Positions 20,551-29,951 of a DNA stretch of 58,684 nt are shown piece after piece. Within the stretch, counting starts at the first letter, position 1. Every line of letters starts with the position of its first letter. Location of the stretch: positions 1 through 58,684 of IMG/VR virus record IMGVR_UViG_3300013372_002058. One strand, written 5' to 3'. The notes under the pieces are model-generated. The model saw nothing but the letters and a program-made list of their open reading frames with translations. It made no database searches and was not told where the DNA came from. The stretch is from a virus. A program made the translations under genes and the position numbers.

Positions 20551-20570
20551 TTTACTCTTACAAGAGTAAA
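20551..20570 (-). repeat. Early-leader dyad repeat, copy 1 (804-aa gene)
   Basis: An exact copy of TTTACTCTTGTAAGAGTAAA (minus strand). It ends 10 nt before the ATG, so its last AAA leads into the Shine-Dalgarno GGGAG. It can form an 8-bp RNA stem with loop UGUA. Confidence 0.85.
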
Positions 20571-20580
20571 CACCAGCTTG

Positions 20581-20607
20581 ACTCGGCCCTCAACGCAAGG
20601 GCCAAGT
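20581..20607 (-). promoter_or_regulatory. Leader hairpin with UGCGUUG loop (804-aa gene)
   Basis: On the minus strand, arms ACTTGGCCCT and AGGGCCGAGT form a 10-bp stem with one wobble pair around the loop TGCGTTG. There is no T-tract, so it is not a typical terminator. The same 7-nt loop is found in the MoxR leader (23893-23923). Confidence 0.6.
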
Positions 20608-20619
20608 CGTCGCTGTAAT

Positions 20620-21873
20620 TTATTGCACTATATCTACTACTACACCATACTCAGGTGGCTTGCCAACGCTGTAGCCTTGGCAGTGGCGCACCCATATCAC
20701 ATCAACGCCGGGATCATTGGGGTAACAGCTGAAGCAATCCGTAAGTGATACGATCACCTCAGCTTCTGCAACCAACGCTTTCTGTATTGCATCGACATGG
20801 CTAGTGCCACCACCTTGTGGCTTGGGCATGACAAGCTCATCGTCAGGTGCTACCTCAACTACCTCATACGCATCTACATTGTGCATGATCAGCACAACAT
20901 CGCACTTAGCAGTATCCCTGAAGGCACGGATCTCTGCCATGAAGTCACCAAGCGTGGTGTTATTGATTGACCCTGATGTGTCAACCAATACTGCCACCTT
21001 GGGGCATGCCTTCCCACCGAGGATAGGAAGGATGACACCTTTGGCAGCTCGCCTACTGGGCCGAGTGTACACATAGTCTTGTTTTACCTTGCGTGTTAGC
21101 AAGTCTTGTAGTACACGCCTCCAGTCAACACTTGCACGGACTGCGTCAACTGCTTGCCTTAGGCCAGCTGACATAGTGCCCTTGCTCATCTCCGTGGCGG
21201 TAGCAACCATGGCCCGTGCGTCACTCTCTGCCTCACTTGGATTGGGTGCTTCCAGCACCTCGCCAAACCCACCCTTGCCACCTTGCTTCTTGCCGGGCTG
21301 AGGCTTGCCGGGTTGATCTCCGGGCTTGTCGCTCGGCTTGTCAGATGGCTGATCGCCACCGCTACCCTTGTCACCGGGCTTGTCGCTTGGCTTACCCGGA
21401 TCATCACCGGGCTTGTCAGGCTGCTCTGGCTGCTCGCAGTCAGGCAAGAGGGTATAGTATTCCTCTGCCGTCTTGTTAGCTGGCATGCTGGCATACTGCC
21501 CGACACCTGCCATGCAAGCACCAGCTGGTAAGGACATGCCACCTTCGATGACTATCTGATTGATAGCCAAGTCACAAGCAATGTTCCAGCGTTGGTGATT
21601 GCGATTACCTTTTCTGCAGTGATGCAGCACTGCTACATGCAGCACCTCATGGCAGATCACCCCTACTATCTCTCGCTCACTAAGCGTGGCGATAAAGTCA
21701 GGATTGTAGATGATCTCCTTGCCGTTAGTGGCAAAGGTCTCGACTTCTGGTGAACACCTGCCGGGCAATCGCATGGCTATCGCACTGTAGAATGCGCCAG
21801 CTCCACGATTGCCAAACCTACCTAGCATGAGTGCCACCAAGGCACTCTTGTACTTCCGTTCCATGTCGTGCAT
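20620..21873 (-). CDS. Putative metallopeptidase plus VWA-like domain protein (DUF2201 type)
   Basis: A 417-aa protein. The N-terminal domain has HEVLH (75-79) with extra His at 84-85, and WNIACDLAINQ (96-106), the usual pattern of the putative zinc metallopeptidase domain next to VWA-like domains. A low-complexity linker of Lys, Pro, Asp and Gly spans about 148-205. The C-terminal VWA-like domain has the MIDAS motif DTSGS (298-302), T357 in GGGTSH and D379 in SLTD. The next-but-one gene upstream is a MoxR ATPase; such pairs act as chaperone-like machines in bacteria. The linker DNA is clearly G+C-richer than the late genes. Confidence 0.88.
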   Translation of the reverse strand: MHDMERKYKSALVALMLGRFGNRGAGAFYSAIAMRLPGRCSPEVETFATNGKEIIYNPDFIATLSEREIVGVICHEVLHVAVLHHCRKGNRNHQRWNIACDLAINQIVIEGGMSLPAGACMAGVGQYASMPANKTAEEYYTLLPDCEQPEQPDKPGDDPGKPSDKPGDKGSGGDQPSDKPSDKPGDQPGKPQPGKKQGGKGGFGEVLEAPNPSEAESDARAMVATATEMSKGTMSAGLRQAVDAVRASVDWRRVLQDLLTRKVKQDYVYTRPSRRAAKGVILPILGGKACPKVAVLVDTSGSINNTTLGDFMAEIRAFRDTAKCDVVLIMHNVDAYEVVEVAPDDELVMPKPQGGGTSHVDAIQKALVAEAEVIVSLTDCFSCYPNDPGVDVIWVRHCQGYSVGKPPEYGVVVDIVQ

Positions 21874-21880
21874 GATACAT

Positions 21881-21895
21881 TCTCCTTTCAAGAGA
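21881..21895 (-). promoter_or_regulatory. Shine-Dalgarno hairpin of the VWA gene
   Basis: The transcript reads UCUCUUGAAAGGAGA, identical to the element before the serine recombinase. The stem holds the GGAG and the loop is UGAAA; the ATG follows 7 nt later. Confidence 0.5.
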
Positions 21896-22723
21896 TTAGT
21901 TACTAGAACCTGCAAGAATAGCTGCAGTTGACGCTGCAACCTTGACATCGTCAAGGGCTTTGATGATCTGGCTGAGATCAGTCTGCAACGCAGTCTGGAA
22001 GAACTCAGCTTTCCTAATTAGTGACTCGCACTCCTTCTCACGATTGGCAAGGGCATAGCCCTTGAGATCCCCATTTGACACATCTTCATACACTGCACCG
22101 CACTTGCGGTTAAGGTCCTGAATTGCAGCTGACAGAACAGACTGACGCTCTTCGTCATTCAATTCGTGACGGAAGATGGCAAAGCGAAACTCGCCATTCG
22201 TGGCTGCAGCGATTGCAGATCCTACACTGTCAAGCATAGACTTCATGCTTTCAGATACCCAATAGACCGCCCCTGCGTCTTTCAACGGCACACCTTGGAA
22301 CCCACTGTTAGGATTGGTAAGCATACGGCGCAAGCAATCCGTGAGCTCGATAGGTGACACTCGACCCGAAGCTTTCTTGTACTCCTGTGCCACACGGTCA
22401 ACCAGAGTTTGGTCAAATGGACTTACTGTCATAGTCTCATCCTCGAACATGATGAAAGATCTTTCGTGATCTAGTTCGTTGATTTCCGTACCCTTGGTTT
22501 CCCGAACAACTTGATAACCGTTCTTACCCTTTAGTGGGCGAATAAGCCAAGACTGTCCGCTGTATACCTGCTTCAGTGCGTGGAGCAAGGAAGCCAATTT
22601 AGTGCGTGGATTAGGTATAAACCCTTTGAGTCCAATGCTCTCGAAACCTGCAGCGATCACTGAGTGATCACACTCCAACGCATTCCAAAGAACTACAATG
22701 CCACGGCCCTTAATACTTATCAT
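21896..22723 (-). CDS. Unknown protein between MoxR and VWA genes, 275 aa
   Basis: The start at 22723 follows GGAGG that sits directly after a dyad repeat. The protein has an N-terminal basic/aromatic part (RTKLASLLHALKQVYSGQSWLIRP), a middle alpha/beta part, and a helical C-terminal third (about 195-270) that could be a coiled coil. I have a weak recollection of a DUF6744-like family in phages, which would need a profile search. Its position between the ATPase and VWA genes suggests a substrate, adaptor or third subunit. Confidence 0.75.
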   Translation of the reverse strand: MISIKGRGIVVLWNALECDHSVIAAGFESIGLKGFIPNPRTKLASLLHALKQVYSGQSWLIRPLKGKNGYQVVRETKGTEINELDHERSFIMFEDETMTVSPFDQTLVDRVAQEYKKASGRVSPIELTDCLRRMLTNPNSGFQGVPLKDAGAVYWVSESMKSMLDSVGSAIAAATNGEFRFAIFRHELNDEERQSVLSAAIQDLNRKCGAVYEDVSNGDLKGYALANREKECESLIRKAEFFQTALQTDLSQIIKALDDVKVAASTAAILAGSSN

Positions 22724-22733
22724 CTGAACCTCC

Positions 22734-22753
22734 GTTACTCTTACAAGAGTAAA
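22734..22753 (-). repeat. Early-leader dyad repeat, copy 2 (275-aa gene)
   Basis: The minus strand reads TTTACTCTTGTAAGAGTAAC, one mismatch at the outer end relative to the other copies. The Shine-Dalgarno GGAGG follows at once and the ATG is 10 nt downstream. Confidence 0.8.
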
Positions 22754-22778
22754 CCATGTGCTAACTGGCACTCATCAG

Positions 22779-22810
22779 TAGGGGCAACACCCCTAGACCC
22801 CGTGTGGGGT
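22779..22810 (-). promoter_or_regulatory. Tandem hairpins between the MoxR gene and the 275-aa gene
   Basis: Two adjacent hairpins on the minus strand: ACCCC-ACAC-GGGGT and TAGGGG-TGTTG-CCCCTA. There is no T-tract. They lie a few bases after the MoxR stop and upstream of the dyad repeat, so they may protect or process the mRNA rather than end it. Confidence 0.5.
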
Positions 22811-22816
22811 TTCGTG

Positions 22817-23815
22817 CTAGACCATAAGCCTAAGCATGTCTTGGTGCTCCTTAGACCATTTGACATACGCCGGGATACGCAACATCTTCTTGACGAAAGT
22901 CTTGGAATCCTTCGCAAACAAAGACTTGAAGTACATGGCAGCAAATTCTGGCGACATGCGAGTAGACAAGGTGACGCAAGCGTCAAGCTCCTTCTCTGAC
23001 GCATTCGTGCTGCGCTCTGCCAAGCCAGCCGTTATCGCATACCTAATGTCCTGTCCATCAGGTATCTCGCAGTTGCTTGGGTCCATGAGCATCTTGGGAA
23101 GATCGAACTTGCCGAAAACGGACAGCCAGCCCCAATACGATGGGGCTATCTCTGGACCTATTAAGCCAGCTATGATGTCATAGTCTGGCTGGTCAAACCT
23201 TGACAACATATCCCAAGACCGTGGCGTTGGGAACGGTGTGCCCTCAGACTTTGGTACGCCGGGAGACAAGTGCTGGGGGCACATCTCTATGAAACCACAG
23301 ATCTCTTTGCGGACACCGTGGCTGTATGCCCACGGTAGCCAGCTATCAATATCCATCTCGACCTCGACAATGCACAACCGATTGACCATTGGAGAGATTA
23401 GGCCAGTACAGCCAGCTCTGTCGCTGGTCTTGTTACCTGCCATGACTATCAGGGTATTCTTGGGCAGTGGGTAATCCCCGAAGCATTTATCCCAAACTAC
23501 CTGCAAGCATGCTGCTTGGACAGGCTTGTTGCTCTGGGTAAATTCATCCATGTAAAGAACCGTAACAGTCCCATCATCTTCTGGGAGTTGAGATGGCCTG
23601 CCCCACGCTACTTTGCCATCAAGGACATAGGGTAGACCCCTAAAGTCTGTTGGTTCAAGCATCGAGCACCGAATATCGATCATGCGGTATCCCTTAGACT
23701 CACACAGCTGTTTGATTACTGCCGACTTTGCCAGACCGGGACTGCCGAGAACCATAGGGACAACATCGCTGTCCCAACATTTTGATACAAAACTAGCTAA
23801 CTTGGAAATCAACAT
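22817..23815 (-). CDS. MoxR-type AAA+ ATPase
   Basis: A 332-aa protein. Walker A is GSPGLAKS (24-31), Walker B is TVLYMDE with D90-E91, and sensor 1 is N128 in VMAGNKTS. Between them lies the MoxR-typical stretch LEPTDFRGLPYVLDGKVAW. MoxR ATPases work with VWA-domain partners to load cofactors, remodel or activate target proteins. Here the partner is encoded two genes downstream. It has its own TTGACA/TATACT promoter, an NGCGUUG-loop hairpin, a dyad repeat and a hairpin-held Shine-Dalgarno, so it seems tightly regulated. Confidence 0.92.
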   Translation of the reverse strand: MLISKLASFVSKCWDSDVVPMVLGSPGLAKSAVIKQLCESKGYRMIDIRCSMLEPTDFRGLPYVLDGKVAWGRPSQLPEDDGTVTVLYMDEFTQSNKPVQAACLQVVWDKCFGDYPLPKNTLIVMAGNKTSDRAGCTGLISPMVNRLCIVEVEMDIDSWLPWAYSHGVRKEICGFIEMCPQHLSPGVPKSEGTPFPTPRSWDMLSRFDQPDYDIIAGLIGPEIAPSYWGWLSVFGKFDLPKMLMDPSNCEIPDGQDIRYAITAGLAERSTNASEKELDACVTLSTRMSPEFAAMYFKSLFAKDSKTFVKKMLRIPAYVKWSKEHQDMLRLMV

Positions 23816-23821
23816 ACTGAT

Positions 23822-23836
23822 TCTCCTTTCGAGAGA
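23822..23836 (-). promoter_or_regulatory. Shine-Dalgarno hairpin of the MoxR gene
   Basis: The transcript reads UCUCUCGAAAGGAGA, the same 5-bp stem as at 17171 and 21881 with loop CGAAA instead of UGAAA. The GGAG is in the 3' arm. Confidence 0.5.
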
Positions 23837-23844
23837 TGTGGCTG

Positions 23845-23864
23845 TTTACTCTTACAAGAGTAAA
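23845..23864 (-). repeat. Early-leader dyad repeat, copy 3 (MoxR gene)
   Basis: An exact copy, lying between the promoter-proximal hairpin and the Shine-Dalgarno hairpin of the MoxR gene, about 30 nt before the ATG. Confidence 0.85.
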
Positions 23865-23892
23865 ACCGATAGATAAGGCAACCGAAACAAAC

Positions 23893-23923
23893 TGTCAGCT
23901 GAGTCAACGCAACTCAACTGACA
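23893..23923 (-). promoter_or_regulatory. 5'-terminal leader hairpin with UGCGUUG loop (MoxR gene)
   Basis: On the minus strand the arms TGTCAGTTGAGT and ACTCAGCTGACA give a 12-bp stem with one U-G pair and loop TGCGTTG. It begins almost exactly at the start site predicted from the promoter at 23930-23958, so the mRNA would begin with it. It might also be a DNA operator. Confidence 0.65.
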
Positions 23924-23929
23924 ATATAT

Positions 23930-23958
23930 AGTATAACAGATTACTCCGCTAGTGTCAA
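23930..23958 (-). promoter_or_regulatory. Sigma70-like promoter of the MoxR gene
   Basis: On the minus strand, TTGACA (23953-23958) and TATACT (23930-23935) are separated by 17 bp. This is close to consensus. The predicted start is near 23923. Confidence 0.8.
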
Positions 23959-24260
23959 GTATTGGCGGTTCGATGCATGCGCTTTATGGCTGCATCTAGC
24001 TCAATCTTTGGGCAGCCTACCCAATCTGGACATGCCAGACGGGTAATCGTGTTGTGGCGGTTAGTTGTAACGCTTGACCTCTCTGTGTTGAGAAGCCAAA
24101 AACGCCCGTTCCACATTGCTAGTGGCCAGTGGGGCCCATAGGAATAGACAACGAAACCGTTGTCACCTAGCTTCATCCCGTACATACTGCCAGTATGGGT
24201 CTGGAACTCTGACCTTGTTTGAATGTGGTAGCCTACACGGTTATTAGAGATTTTTTTCAT
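23955..24260 (-). CDS. Small phage protein with YSYGPHWPLA motif, 101 aa
   Basis: The pattern FVVYSYGPHWPLAMWNGRFWLLNTERSSVTTNRHNT recalls a common family of about 80-100 aa in phage genomes that has 'SYGTHWPL' and 'S.TTSRH' motifs; no biochemical function is known to me. The start at 24260 follows GGAGG and overlaps the preceding gene by 17 bp. It is the last gene before the MoxR promoter, and its end overlaps the -35 box. Confidence 0.7.
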   Translation of the reverse strand: MKKISNNRVGYHIQTRSEFQTHTGSMYGMKLGDNGFVVYSYGPHWPLAMWNGRFWLLNTERSSVTTNRHNTITRLACPDWVGCPKIELDAAIKRMHRTANT

Positions 24261-24444
24261 TGGAACCTCCTTTCGTGGCGGTTACGAGAGTAGTGAGCTT
24301 TGACTTTCGTGCATGGTTGACCCATTTCTTGTAACGCTTTTCGGCGTTACAGTCATGGCATATATCGCTGATAAATGGGTAGGGGTGTACCACACGGAAG
24401 ACAGCTATTTCTCGCAAACAAAAATCACAGATAGAAGTTATCAT
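24244..24444 (-). CDS. Small zinc-finger-like protein, 66 aa
   Basis: Two cysteine pairs, CDFC (residues 6-9) and CHDC (29-32), spaced by 19 residues, suggest a small zinc ribbon, followed by a basic helix (KRYKKWVNHARKSK). It could bind DNA or RNA. The start is two bases after the stop of the preceding gene. No family named. Confidence 0.65.
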   Translation of the reverse strand: MITSICDFCLREIAVFRVVHPYPFISDICHDCNAEKRYKKWVNHARKSKLTTLVTATKGGSNEKNL

Positions 24445-24446
24445 TA

Positions 24447-24653
24447 CTACACCCCCAATTCTGGGGGTAGATCGTATGTCGCACCTGTAGACAGATCCTT
24501 AAGGTACAATTTCAACAACTCGATCTGGGCTTTGGCTTCTGCCAATTCCGATTGCAGCATCTCGACTTTAAAGCCATGTGCTTGCACGGTTTCTCTGTAA
24601 ATTAACCCCATAGCCCTGATCCGTTCCGCATCATTAGTCCAGTTATACAACAT
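24447..24653 (-). CDS. Small coiled-coil early protein, 68 aa
   Basis: It starts at 24653 after AAAGGAG. The body is one long amphipathic helix (MLQSELAEAKAQIELLKLYLKDL), so it may form a coiled coil. No family recognised. Its leader (24654-24742) has a dyad repeat and two competing hairpins, and its Shine-Dalgarno is in the loop of CAAA-GGAG-TTTG. Confidence 0.65.
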   Translation of the reverse strand: MLYNWTNDAERIRAMGLIYRETVQAHGFKVEMLQSELAEAKAQIELLKLYLKDLSTGATYDLPPELGV

Positions 24654-24655
24654 CG

Positions 24656-24667
24656 CAAACTCCTTTG
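24656..24667 (-). promoter_or_regulatory. GGAG-in-loop Shine-Dalgarno hairpin (68-aa gene)
   Basis: The transcript can fold as CAAA-GGAG-UUUG, with the Shine-Dalgarno GGAG as the loop. CsrA/RsmA proteins bind GGA in such loops, so this may be a target of the CsrA-like protein encoded just upstream. The stem is only 4 bp. Confidence 0.4.
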
Positions 24668-24674
24668 AAGTTGA

Positions 24675-24717
24675 AGTGTCAGTTAAAAGAAACAACCACG
24701 CTGACACTCAAGCGTGG
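24675..24717 (-). promoter_or_regulatory. Two mutually exclusive hairpins in the leader of the 68-aa gene
   Basis: Hairpin A (24696-24717) pairs CCACGCT with AGCGTGG. Hairpin B pairs AGTGTCAG (minus strand from 24708) with CTGACACT (to 24675) over an 18-nt loop. They share bases 24701-24708, so only one can form. This looks like a possible RNA switch in front of the gene. Confidence 0.45.
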
Positions 24718-24720
24718 CTG

Positions 24721-24740
24721 TTTACTCTTACAAGAGTAAA
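24721..24740 (-). repeat. Early-leader dyad repeat, copy 4 (68-aa gene)
   Basis: An exact copy, starting two bases after the csrA stop and 68 nt before the next ATG. It is immediately followed by the two competing hairpins. Confidence 0.85.
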
Positions 24741-24742
24741 TA

Positions 24743-24901
24743 CTACTTAGCCTTGGTCGTTTCAATCTTGATACGCTTGATGTCGAATGCCTTGGAAGCA
24801 TTGATACCAACCTTGACCTTGCTCTCGAAGAAAAGAACAATCTTTTCTCCGTTGTGGGTAATCTCAAGGCAATTCGTATCCGATACAGTAAGGACCAACA
24901 T
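24743..24901 (-). CDS. csrA: CsrA/RsmA-like RNA-binding translational regulator, 52 aa
   Basis: A short gene (52 aa). The sequence MLVLT at the start, L12-x-I14 and VKVGINASK (29-37) with R43 in DIKRIKI align with bacterial CsrA over its beta-strand core with a one-residue gap. L4 and R43 match the RNA-contact positions L4 and R44 of E. coli CsrA; the usual R6 is V6 here. CsrA dimers bind GGA in mRNA leaders and block or stabilise them. Its own Shine-Dalgarno lies in the loop of a 5-bp hairpin, which fits autoregulation. It has a strong promoter and heads the operon below. Confidence 0.82.
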   Translation of the reverse strand: MLVLTVSDTNCLEITHNGEKIVLFFESKVKVGINASKAFDIKRIKIETTKAK

Positions 24902-24902
24902 A

Positions 24903-24917
24903 GGAAACTCCTTTTCC
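24903..24917 (-). promoter_or_regulatory. GGAG-in-loop Shine-Dalgarno hairpin of csrA
   Basis: The transcript reads GGAAAAGGAGUUUCC: 5-bp stem GGAAA/UUUCC, loop AGGAG, then U and the AUG. The Shine-Dalgarno is the loop. It matches the usual form of a CsrA site and suggests feedback control. Confidence 0.55.
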
Positions 24918-24918
24918 A

Positions 24919-24938
24919 TTTACTCTTACAAGAGTAAA
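24919..24938 (-). repeat. Early-leader dyad repeat, copy 5 (csrA)
   Basis: An exact copy, between the NGCGUUG-loop hairpin and the csrA Shine-Dalgarno hairpin. Confidence 0.85.
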
Positions 24939-24958
24939 ACTAGGTTGATGATCGTGGC

Positions 24959-24977
24959 GGTTAACAACGCTTTAACC
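24959..24977 (-). promoter_or_regulatory. Leader hairpin with AGCGUUG loop (csrA)
   Basis: The minus strand reads GGTTAA-AGCGTTG-TTAACC, a perfect 6-bp stem. The loop differs in one base from the UGCGUUG loops at 20581 and 23893, while the stems are unrelated. It lies between the csrA promoter and the dyad. Confidence 0.55.
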
Positions 24978-25011
24978 ATTCAAATTCAAACCATATCACC
25001 AACCGATTAGT

Positions 25012-25040
25012 ATTGTAGCACAATAGATCTCTGGTGTCAA
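25012..25040 (-). promoter_or_regulatory. Sigma70-like promoter of csrA
   Basis: On the minus strand, TTGACA (25035-25040) and TACAAT (25012-25017) with a 17-bp spacer. The predicted start is near 25005, giving a csrA leader of about 105 nt. Confidence 0.8.
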
Positions 25041-25204
25041 ATAATCCAAATGTCACTAGTCAAACAGAATTGTGGCTGTCCCATGGGTGCGGGCGCATTG
25101 ATCTTTTTATTGATCGTGGCGCATGCGTGAAGTGGGGTTTACTCTTACAAGAGTAAAAAGTGGCGGTTTGCGTAAAAGTCTTAAAATCCTTGGAAGCTAG
25201 GGCA
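25041..25204. other. Non-coding stretch upstream of the csrA promoter
   Basis: No gene with a credible ribosome-binding site is seen on either strand. It lies between a terminator and the csrA promoter and carries an orphan dyad repeat (25138-25157), an AACCGCCAC copy beside it that recurs in the csrA leader and before the gene at 24260, and GATC-TTTTTATT-GATC near 25101. The whole gap 24902-25314 is regulatory in appearance. Confidence 0.5.
25138..25157 (-). repeat. Early-leader dyad repeat, copy 6 (orphan)
   Basis: An exact copy with no gene directly after it. On the minus strand the next features are the csrA promoter and leader. It may mark a lost gene or a short untranslated RNA. Confidence 0.8.
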
Positions 25205-25237
25205 TAAAAAAACCCCCCTTGCAACAAGCAAGAGGGG
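25205..25237 (-). terminator. Rho-independent terminator after the 252-aa gene
   Basis: On the minus strand the arms CCCCTCTTGC and GCAAGGGGGG pair over 10 bp with loop TTGTT, followed by seven T. It separates the first early gene from the csrA promoter. Confidence 0.85.
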
Positions 25238-25280
25238 TAAACTAGGTAATGCAAGGGGATTAAGTAAAAAACAGTTAAAA

Positions 25281-25316
25281 ACACAAAAAACACAAGAAAC
25301 ACAAGAAACACAAGTT
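25281..25316. repeat. Four tandem 9-bp units (ACACAAGAA type)
   Basis: Units at 25281, 25290, 25299 and 25308 read ACACAAAAA, ACACAAGAA, ACACAAGAA and ACACAAGTT. They end at the stop codon of the 252-aa gene. Slippage repeat or short binding array; no function can be assigned. Confidence 0.7.
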
Positions 25317-26073
25317 ATTTGCCAGAAAGATCATATCGTTTGCTCTTATTAACCATGGTTAATTGATCGCAAAGTTTAGTAGAAAAATCTTGATCGATAT
25401 TAAAAACATGAGCACAAAACGCAATTAAATAATCATTGCTAATGTCGCATTGTCTTTTTAATTCGATAGCAAGATTGTAGGCTGATTGTTCTTTGCTATT
25501 GTGAACCGGATTAGATTCTAAAGGCTTATTTTCTAAGGCTTTTTGTTCCTTTTCTTTAAAAGCCTTTTCGTTCCTATCTTGCAAAGTCGGCATGCCTTTT
25601 AAAGTGTTTACGATCTCCCGTAATTCTTTAGTTTCGACATTGTTAGGCACGGCTTTGATAGTCTCAGAAATAGGCTTTTCAGCCTTATTTGTTGTGACTA
25701 TTTCAAGAGCGCCTACACCGTTACAAGCCGGGACTGATTGCATGCTAGCTAATCCAATAGCCAAACAAGTTACATTCTTAAATCCTAGTAACCATGCCTT
25801 ATCTTTCTTTGCAATATTCCCAATCTTGATCATATTGGAGAAAGTAAATGAAGAGTTGGTTATACCTAGTTCTTTCCATGTATCGTTCCATTCAGCCCGG
25901 TAATCTTTTAAACTTTCATCCTCTTTGATATTGCTTTCAATTAGATTGAAAGTTTCAATACAAATATCGATAAAAGCTTTCGATAAGTCCTTTTCGGCAC
26001 GGCTTAAAACAAGATTGAACTTGTTAAGAGAATTGGCCGAAAAGCTTTTCAAGATGCTGCTAATAGTCTTCAT
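25315..26073 (-). CDS. First minus-strand early protein, 252 aa, unknown
   Basis: No family recognised. The start at 26073 is used because it follows GAAAGGA in a hairpin; an upstream in-frame start (26109) lacks a site. The N-terminal 110 residues are helical (SFSANSLNKFNLVLSRAEKDLSKAFIDICI is one helix-rich part), a charged linker lies around 140-200, and the C-terminus is helical. It has its own promoter, dyad and terminator, so it is a single-gene unit nearest to the divergent control region. It may be an early regulator, but this rests on position only. Confidence 0.7.
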   Translation of the reverse strand: MKTISSILKSFSANSLNKFNLVLSRAEKDLSKAFIDICIETFNLIESNIKEDESLKDYRAEWNDTWKELGITNSSFTFSNMIKIGNIAKKDKAWLLGFKNVTCLAIGLASMQSVPACNGVGALEIVTTNKAEKPISETIKAVPNNVETKELREIVNTLKGMPTLQDRNEKAFKEKEQKALENKPLESNPVHNSKEQSAYNLAIELKRQCDISNDYLIAFCAHVFNIDQDFSTKLCDQLTMVNKSKRYDLSGK

Positions 26074-26079
26074 GGGGTG

Positions 26080-26096
26080 CAATCCTTTCAAGATTG
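26080..26096 (-). promoter_or_regulatory. Shine-Dalgarno hairpin of the 252-aa gene (covarying stem)
   Basis: The transcript reads CAAUCUUGAAAGGAUUG: a 6-bp stem ending in a U-G pair, with loop UGAAA. The loop and closing pair match the elements at 17171 and 21881 while the outer stem has changed on both sides, which supports a real RNA fold. Confidence 0.55.
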
Positions 26097-26132
26097 TTTC
26101 CCCTTGCATCGCCTAGTTGTCAAAGATCATTG

Positions 26133-26152
26133 TTTACTCTTACAAGAGCAAA
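26133..26152 (-). repeat. Early-leader dyad repeat, copy 7 (252-aa gene)
   Basis: The minus strand reads TTTGCTCTTGTAAGAGTAAA. The single change (A to G) breaks the DNA symmetry but keeps RNA pairing as G-U. Confidence 0.8.
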
Positions 26153-29345: not shown

Positions 29346-29858
29346 ATGTCAGAAGTTAAAGAATACAAGTTGCCATCACGGAACGGGAGGTTGCATGGTA
29401 CATACATCATACCACAGCCCGTACTGCGAGAGGCAGCTAAGAAGTTTCCTACTGTAAGTGTTGATGTTCAGATCAAAAAGATGGTGGATTGGTTGGAAAA
29501 AGAACCAGATCTCCAGAAAAAAGATGAGTGGTATCCAGAATTTATCCTTAATTGGTTCGCTAGAGCTGCTGGCCACAAGATTGAAACCGATAAAAGGGGT
29601 CAAACAGGGGGTCAAAGTGGTGGAAATAGTGACCAAATGGGGGCTATTTTGAAGGAAATCAAGCTTATAAATGAGCGTATTGGGACCCTGCAAAGGCTAC
29701 TTTTAAAGCGTTTATTTGCTGAAGATGGCGATGTTGATGCATCTAAGATACTAGAAGGGGCTAATCTAGTAGAGGATGGTGAAGAGATAGATGCCGATTT
29801 TGAAATTGTGCCACCAAAGAAGGCTCCAAGTCGTGATGACGAAGACCTTCCTTTCTGA
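29346..29858 (+). CDS. DNA-replication accessory protein with SSB-like C-terminal tip, 170 aa
   Basis: The last residues, SRDDEDLPF, match the acidic tip of bacterial SSB (DDDIPF type), which recruits many replication and repair proteins. The N-terminal part has WYPEFILNWFARAAGHK, a motif seen in some phage replication proteins, followed by a Gly/Gln linker and a helix at about 100-125. It does not look like a canonical OB-fold SSB. It may compete for or recruit host SSB partners. GAGGAG precedes the ATG at 29346; a GTG at 29337 is less likely. Confidence 0.7.
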   Translation: MSEVKEYKLPSRNGRLHGTYIIPQPVLREAAKKFPTVSVDVQIKKMVDWLEKEPDLQKKDEWYPEFILNWFARAAGHKIETDKRGQTGGQSGGNSDQMGAILKEIKLINERIGTLQRLLLKRLFAEDGDVDASKILEGANLVEDGEEIDADFEIVPPKKAPSRDDEDLPF

Positions 29859-29866
29859 TAAAAAAG

Positions 29867-29896
29867 AACCCTCAGGTAAAACTGGGGGTTTTTTTA
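29867..29896 (+). terminator. Rho-independent terminator of the replication block
   Basis: Arms AACCCTCAG and CTGGGGGTT (one wobble) with loop GTAAAA, followed by TTTTT. It lies 9 bp after the stop and directly before the late promoter. Confidence 0.85.
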
Positions 29897-29897
29897 T

Positions 29898-29926
29898 TTG
29901 ACTTTTTATTTGGAACCAATCATATT
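29898..29926 (+). promoter_or_regulatory. Sigma70-like late promoter
   Basis: TTGACT (29898-29903), 17 bp, CATATT (29921-29926). The predicted start is near 29933. It precedes the scaffold-like gene and is the only good plus-strand promoter I found for the late block. Confidence 0.65.
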
Positions 29927-29932
29927 TAAGTT

Positions 29933-29951
29933 ACTACAAATTAGTTGTAGT
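29933..29951 (+). promoter_or_regulatory. Inverted repeat at the late start site
   Basis: ACTACAA-ATTAG-TTGTAGT, a perfect 7-bp dyad beginning at the predicted late transcription start. It may be an operator or a 5'-terminal mRNA hairpin, as for the MoxR leader. Confidence 0.55.

Follow-up and report, generated by a model that had tools for sequence, protein, structure and literature searches.

The early genes of one phage raise the question of what a short inverted repeat does when it recurs at one gene junction after another. In IMG/VR record IMGVR_UViG_3300013372_002058, an undescribed freshwater phage, a 20-letter inverted repeat (the dyad) occurs seven times at early-gene junctions; our window was the entire virus record, 58.7 kb. 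We give a probability of about one half to the reading that the dyads are cis-acting RNA hairpins marking the junctions of early mRNAs and forming one phage-specific site set. Whether it works as RNA or as DNA, the dyad, a well-defined element that an undescribed phage group carries in multiple copies, is relevant to the way in which phages manage long early operons.

Distribution of the dyad in the early block

A search of the window with the pattern TTTACTCTTGTAAGAGTAAA returned seven matches, all on the minus strand, and no further copy on either strand when up to three mismatches were allowed. Shuffled sequences gave a mean of 0.01 dyads against the seven seen, and the backward control gave none. 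All seven lie within 5.6 kb of the early block, and we numbered them along the direction of transcription, from S1 (26133) to S7 (20551). A previous sequence-only reading of this DNA had reported these seven copies, five of them exact and two with one difference, with the same asymmetric centre; every copy was recovered, and the centre reads TGTA in the coding direction in 7/7. The two differences are not alike. In S1, TTTGCTCT-TGTA-AGAGTAAA, the substitution A4>G leaves a G-U pair in the RNA, whereas the difference in S6, when compared with the relative G001 (AGAGTAAACGGAGG), is better explained by the loss of one base, which gives AGAGTAACGGAGG and leaves the 3' end shorter by one A, than by a substitution.

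Six of the seven dyads stand upstream of a start codon on the transcribed strand, as had been claimed for the leaders of early genes (coordinates in the early block refer to the minus strand). S1 (26133..26152) is in the leader of the first early gene, which encodes 252 amino acids (aa). S3 (24919..24938) is in the leader of a csrA-like gene, about 67 nt past the transcription start inferred for a predicted promoter, and S4 (24721..24740) follows the csrA-like stop codon in the leader of the next small gene. S5 (23845..23864) lies in the leader of a MoxR-type ATPase gene, while S6 (22734..22753), with a hammerhead ribozyme just upstream, and S7 (20551..20570) abut the Shine-Dalgarno sequences of a 275-aa and an 804-aa gene, respectively. 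The exception is S2 (25138..25157), which is flanked by an intrinsic terminator (25238-25212) and the next promoter (25040-25012) and belongs to no gene leader; this site is kept in all four lineages compared below. The dyad was absent from the gaps read farther down the early block, past the 804-aa gene.

Two strong sigma-70-like promoters, TTGACA-17-TACAAT (25012..25040) upstream of S3 and TTGACA-17-TATACT (23930..23958) upstream of S5, are conserved in the four lineages, and the starts inferred from them lie roughly 60-70 nt upstream of these two dyads. Just before S1 a third promoter is predicted (26205-26176), which is weaker and has no conserved counterpart in G001 or G002. No T-tract was seen 3' of any dyad, in agreement with the sequence-only reading, so that the dyads lack the combination of G+C-rich stem and T-tract that defines an intrinsic terminator; a terminator scan flagged one copy of the seven, weakly (the 26133 copy, with 3 G-C pairs).

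Conservation of the site set in related phages

Nucleotide searches with the early region found no match among annotated phages. Protein searches of IMG/VR identified the close relatives G001, G002 and G003 and the further contigs G004, G005 and G010; searches for additional relatives gave none past those named, and none in genomes. We compared four lineages, the window and G001 to G003, which hold 27 dyad copies in total: G001 and G002 have seven sites each and G003 has six, its contig starting near S2. The dyads occupy orthologous gene junctions and lie on the coding strand throughout, and no extra copies of the dyad core were found in the four genomes. To this extent the comparison bore out the earlier proposal: the dyads form a set of sites at early-gene junctions. 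Copies in both orientations, named beforehand as evidence that would speak against it, were looked for in the relatives, and only coding-strand copies were found.

The exact 20-mer had no match in viral contigs because the relatives change the centre. Terminase-based distant relatives (G014-G016) were without the dyad. The arm pattern gave single exact matches in nine other viral records, and in the genomes of 84,980 bacterial and archaeal species it occurred in 74 stretches, never in more than one copy each; we took both sets of matches as due to chance. A shortened arm pattern gave, among the matches listed for viral contigs, one copy per contig except in G003. The dyad family matched nothing in the databases searched. 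As the bacterial genome stretches held single copies only, the dyads are a site set specific to this phage group.

Covariation within the dyad

Over the 27 copies the dyad has the general form TTTACTCT-N-NN-N'-AGAGTAAA. Bases 5-8 and 13-18 (CTCT....AGAGTA) are invariant in all copies, and the inner dinucleotide of the centre is unconstrained. Positions 9 and 12, by comparison, change but remain Watson-Crick partners in 27/27 copies (G-C in 13, U-A in 7, A-U in 5, C-G in 2). There are eight distinct centres, all complementary at 9/12 (permutation p 0.0009), and the covariation score was 0.221, against 0.080 after shuffling, with double changes at pair 9 only. The search of related genomes for covariation, which the sequence-only reading had put forward as a check, thus found it in these two positions. 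With pair 9 included, the helix comprises nine pairs around two bases, and the loop UGUA proposed at first is not conserved. The hairpin could accordingly be drawn either with 9 pairs and a 2-base tip or with 8 pairs and a tetraloop.

Five copies carry stem variants in which pairing is kept as G-U: A4>G in three and A19>G in two, at pairs 4/17 and 2/19. These variants recur in G003. The change at 26133 had been taken as favouring an RNA hairpin over a DNA operator; the G-U pair is indeed kept, but a single change is too little evidence alone. When 23 leaders were folded as single sequences, the probability of the dyad stem exceeded 0.8 in 19, and S4 of G003 stood at 0.80. We also considered the 5' arm as an anti-Shine-Dalgarno switch; such pairing was seen in few leaders only and is not general.

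Evolution of the centre and the flanks

Our initial impression was of a hypervariable centre. Between G001 and G002, identity is 94% in the 40-nt flanks, 99% in the arms and 43% in the centre, while fourfold sites of three adjacent genes are 65% identical. The impression was therefore revised: pair 9 aside, the centre evolves at the silent rate or somewhat faster, and what is unusual is the slowness of the flanks. Their slow change relative to fourfold sites indicates that the leaders are under strong constraint. The centre differs from genome to genome and is nearly uniform within three of the four (TGTA 7/7 in the window, GCCC 6/7 in G002, GTAC 5/6 in G003), whereas G001 has a mixture. Copying from site to site can be seen in G003: its S6 and S7 are identical over 32 bases, the Shine-Dalgarno sequence included.

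Such copying, the homogenised centres and the fact that palindrome-perfecting mutation could alone maintain pair 9 are what would be expected if the dyads were selfish or neutral palindromes, kept alike by inter-site copying and perfecting mutation and devoid of a regulatory role. We find this hardly credible: the places are fixed and the arms invariant across lineages whose silent sites are near saturation, copies occur nowhere else, and there are no signs of mobility. An invertase-like gene is present in the early block, and for this reason a serine recombinase site was considered. It was rejected because the centres differ and because genes would be lost if direct repeats recombined.

RNA hairpins or DNA sites

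Four lines of evidence lead us to favour RNA hairpins: the complementary change of pair 9, which is found at minority sites within one genome too; the position of the dyads in transcribed junctions that are not promoters; the stem variants that keep G-U pairs; and the RNA-structured surroundings described below. The invariant arms would then probably be read by one phage-encoded factor, and the hairpin may mark where early transcripts are processed, or where their stability or translation is set.

Several observations weigh against the hairpin. Fixed arms around a free centre are the usual mark of a dimeric DNA-binding protein, and compensatory changes are absent from arms 1-8 in all 27 copies, whereas the stems of the adjacent hammerhead and NGCGUUG hairpins do have them. 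S2 is in no leader. The G-U-keeping changes are few and not independent, and S4 of G003, the only such copy, loses two internal pairs. For S4 of the window, G001 and G002, predicted folding favours a different hairpin, formed with sequence that lies upstream. A 2-base tip is unusual for RNA, although two-base tips closed by a Watson-Crick pair exist, for example in the CUUG loop. Finally, no trans-acting factor was identified for the dyads. The original preference for RNA over a DNA operator is accordingly upheld in part: pair 9 and the G-U variants support it, and the uncompensated arms, which a dimeric DNA-binding protein would equally produce, weaken it.

These points bear on a second reading, in which a dimeric phage repressor or regulator binds the dyads as duplex DNA and they act as stoperator-like roadblocks in transcribed junctions or as operators, the centre conferring an immunity-like specificity between phages. 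We regard it as a serious alternative, though less probable than the hairpin. It would explain the invariant half-site TTTACTCT with its variable spacer, the near uniformity of the centre within three genomes and its difference between relatives, and the co-divergence of one early protein, the S1-gene product, with the centre; stoperators are likewise transcription-oriented, mostly outside promoters and different between phages (PMC6550527). However, S6 of G002, S4 of G003 and S4, S5 and S7 of G001 change positions 9 and 12 jointly and stay complementary, a pairing for which a homodimer has no need. In addition, no dyad of the window (0/7) overlaps a predicted strong promoter, and no DNA-binding domain was found in the early proteins tested.

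A dual element, that is, a DNA operator whose transcript folds too, as in CIRCE-type leader sites, would account at once for the fixed arms, the covariation of pair 9 and the location in leaders. We consider it improbable, since direct evidence was found for neither half and the spacing and sequence of CIRCE differ from those of the dyad.

The S1-gene product and the csrA-like gene

The S1 gene (25315..26073) encodes an orphan protein of 252 aa. Of the early proteins for which relatives were detected it evolves by far the fastest, its G001 and G002 versions sharing 59% identity where the other proteins share 88-100%. The window protein has 36-38% identity to its relatives, compared with 77-100% for most of its neighbours, and dN/dS was 0.23 for the S1 gene versus about 0.05 for two neighbours. 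Because of this rapid evolution we propose the S1-gene product as a candidate trans-acting partner of the dyads, an assignment suggested by co-divergence only. No recognised domain was found in this protein, and a DUF3102 helix-turn-helix gave no match. Its structural model has low confidence (mean pLDDT 58), and a fold search with it returned no match. No repressor was recognised by sequence among the early proteins tested, and no relative of RegB among those scanned.

The csrA-like gene (24743..24901) lies between S3 and S4 and encodes 52 aa. Profile searches of the PDB with its product returned CsrA/RsmE chains only (best E 4.5e-4), as expected of a CsrA family member; the match to Pfam CsrA (E 8e-4 to 0.07) is under the curated cut-off. 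The GGA of its Shine-Dalgarno sequence lies in the loop of a hairpin, GGAAA-AGGAG-UUUCC (24903..24917), whose stem is altered yet kept in relatives according to the S3 alignment and the consensus fold. This arrangement suggests autoregulation of the csrA-like gene. CsrA itself was rejected as reader of the dyad: GGA is absent from 8/8 distinct centres, and some of the Shine-Dalgarno sequences are without it.

Structured RNAs next to the dyads

The junction between the MoxR gene and the 275-aa gene contains a predicted type II hammerhead ribozyme (22768..22817), directly after the MoxR stop codon and with its cut predicted between 22796 and 22795. It has the GAAA and CUGAUGA core, closed stems I and III, an open stem II and a predicted cleavage site after UH; its Rfam RF02276 score, 17.3 bits, is under the gathering score of 37. 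A structural scan found one such element in the window and one in each of G001, G002, G003 and G005, always ahead of the same gene, compared with 0.02 in a shuffled genome strand. Among six sequences compared, every one of the 15 pairs is preserved, and 9 show double changes. A conserved strand downstream (GCAC or GGAC) could compete for the open stem II. The distant relative G016 contains three type II hammerheads on the reverse strand (11442, 11831 and 13052), each near the start codon of the next gene.

Hairpins with an NGCGUUG loop form a second family. Those of the window lie upstream of S3 (24958..24978), at the predicted 5' end of the S5 transcript (UGCGUUG loop, 23891..23925) and upstream of S7 (UGCGUUG loop, 20580..20608). 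Each genome has two to four, on the coding strand only and upstream of dyads only, compared with 0 to 0.05 in shuffles. The loop is fixed, whereas double changes occur at every stem pair; as the hairpins were selected for pairing, this variation has to be read with caution. G001 has one upstream of S2 as well, within a terminator-like hairpin. In the S3 leader (24943-25004, minus strand), a long helix GGUUGGUGAU/AUCAUCAACC encloses the NGCGUUG hairpin and is kept in G001 and G002.

The S4 leader contains a candidate pseudoknot (24675..24717), in which the loop AGUGUC of a hairpin CCACGCU/AGCGUGG could pair with the complementary GACACU immediately ahead of the Shine-Dalgarno sequence; both strands are present in 4/4 lineages, as read from the alignment. 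The early coding strand has seven copies of the motif CCGCCAC (for example at 24954-24960 and 25160-25166), and the other strand has none. Outside these leaders, a weak match to Rfam psRNA14 at 29856-29938 on the plus strand (30.1 bits, gathering 60, E 0.46) is probably due to chance.

The hairpin reading can be extended to these neighbours. The dyads might be a hairpin family that punctuates the early mRNA, with the stem read by a co-evolving phage protein (the S1-gene product being the candidate), and might act beside the hammerhead and the phage CsrA in cutting or partitioning the polycistronic transcript, while the centre that sets specificity drifts and the arms stay fixed. In this full form we regard the proposal as rather doubtful.

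Comparison with known systems

The CIRCE/HrcA operators are inverted repeats in mRNA leaders, with conserved arms and a variable centre; they act at the DNA level and their transcripts can fold. The dyad resembles them in its conserved arms, its variable centre and its mostly leader location. CIRCE reads TTAGCACTC-N9-GAGTGCTAA, with a spacer of 9 bases, and belongs to host heat-shock genes, whereas the dyad has the arms TTTACTCT/AGAGTAAA spaced by 4 and is not a CIRCE element.

Closer in distribution are the stoperators of cluster A mycobacteriophages, phage sites present in many copies, mostly outside promoters and oriented with transcription, whose consensus varies among related phages (PMC6550527, PMC9283540). 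The dyads are similarly multi-copy, share one strand and one asymmetric centre in 7/7, overlap no predicted strong promoter and differ in their centre between phages. Stoperators are, however, asymmetric sites of 13 bp that occur over much of the genome, and a monomeric repressor binds them as duplex DNA and stops elongation, whereas the dyad is a near-perfect palindrome of 20 bp, confined to one early block, with a covarying ninth pair and no repressor identified. By its symmetry and its confinement the dyad is therefore not a stoperator; if the DNA form works, it would be the palindromic equivalent of a stoperator, with a specificity that changes.

Two neighbours of the dyads have precedents, as phage CsrA genes (PMC9144972) and intergenic type II hammerheads of phages (PMC3088659) are already known. 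The element next to S6 resembles the latter in its hammerhead core, its three stems with stem II open and its place at a gene junction. The dyad differs in having no hammerhead core and is no ribozyme. The RegB sites of T4 are phage-specific marks in the intergenic regions and at the translation starts of early transcripts, and define an early set (PMC3014915). The dyads likewise mark the junctions of early transcripts, but RegB cuts GGAG, whereas the dyad is a stem and has no GGAG. If the RNA form works, the dyad would be a mark on early transcripts specific in its stem sequence, placed next to a ribozyme and a CsrA homologue.

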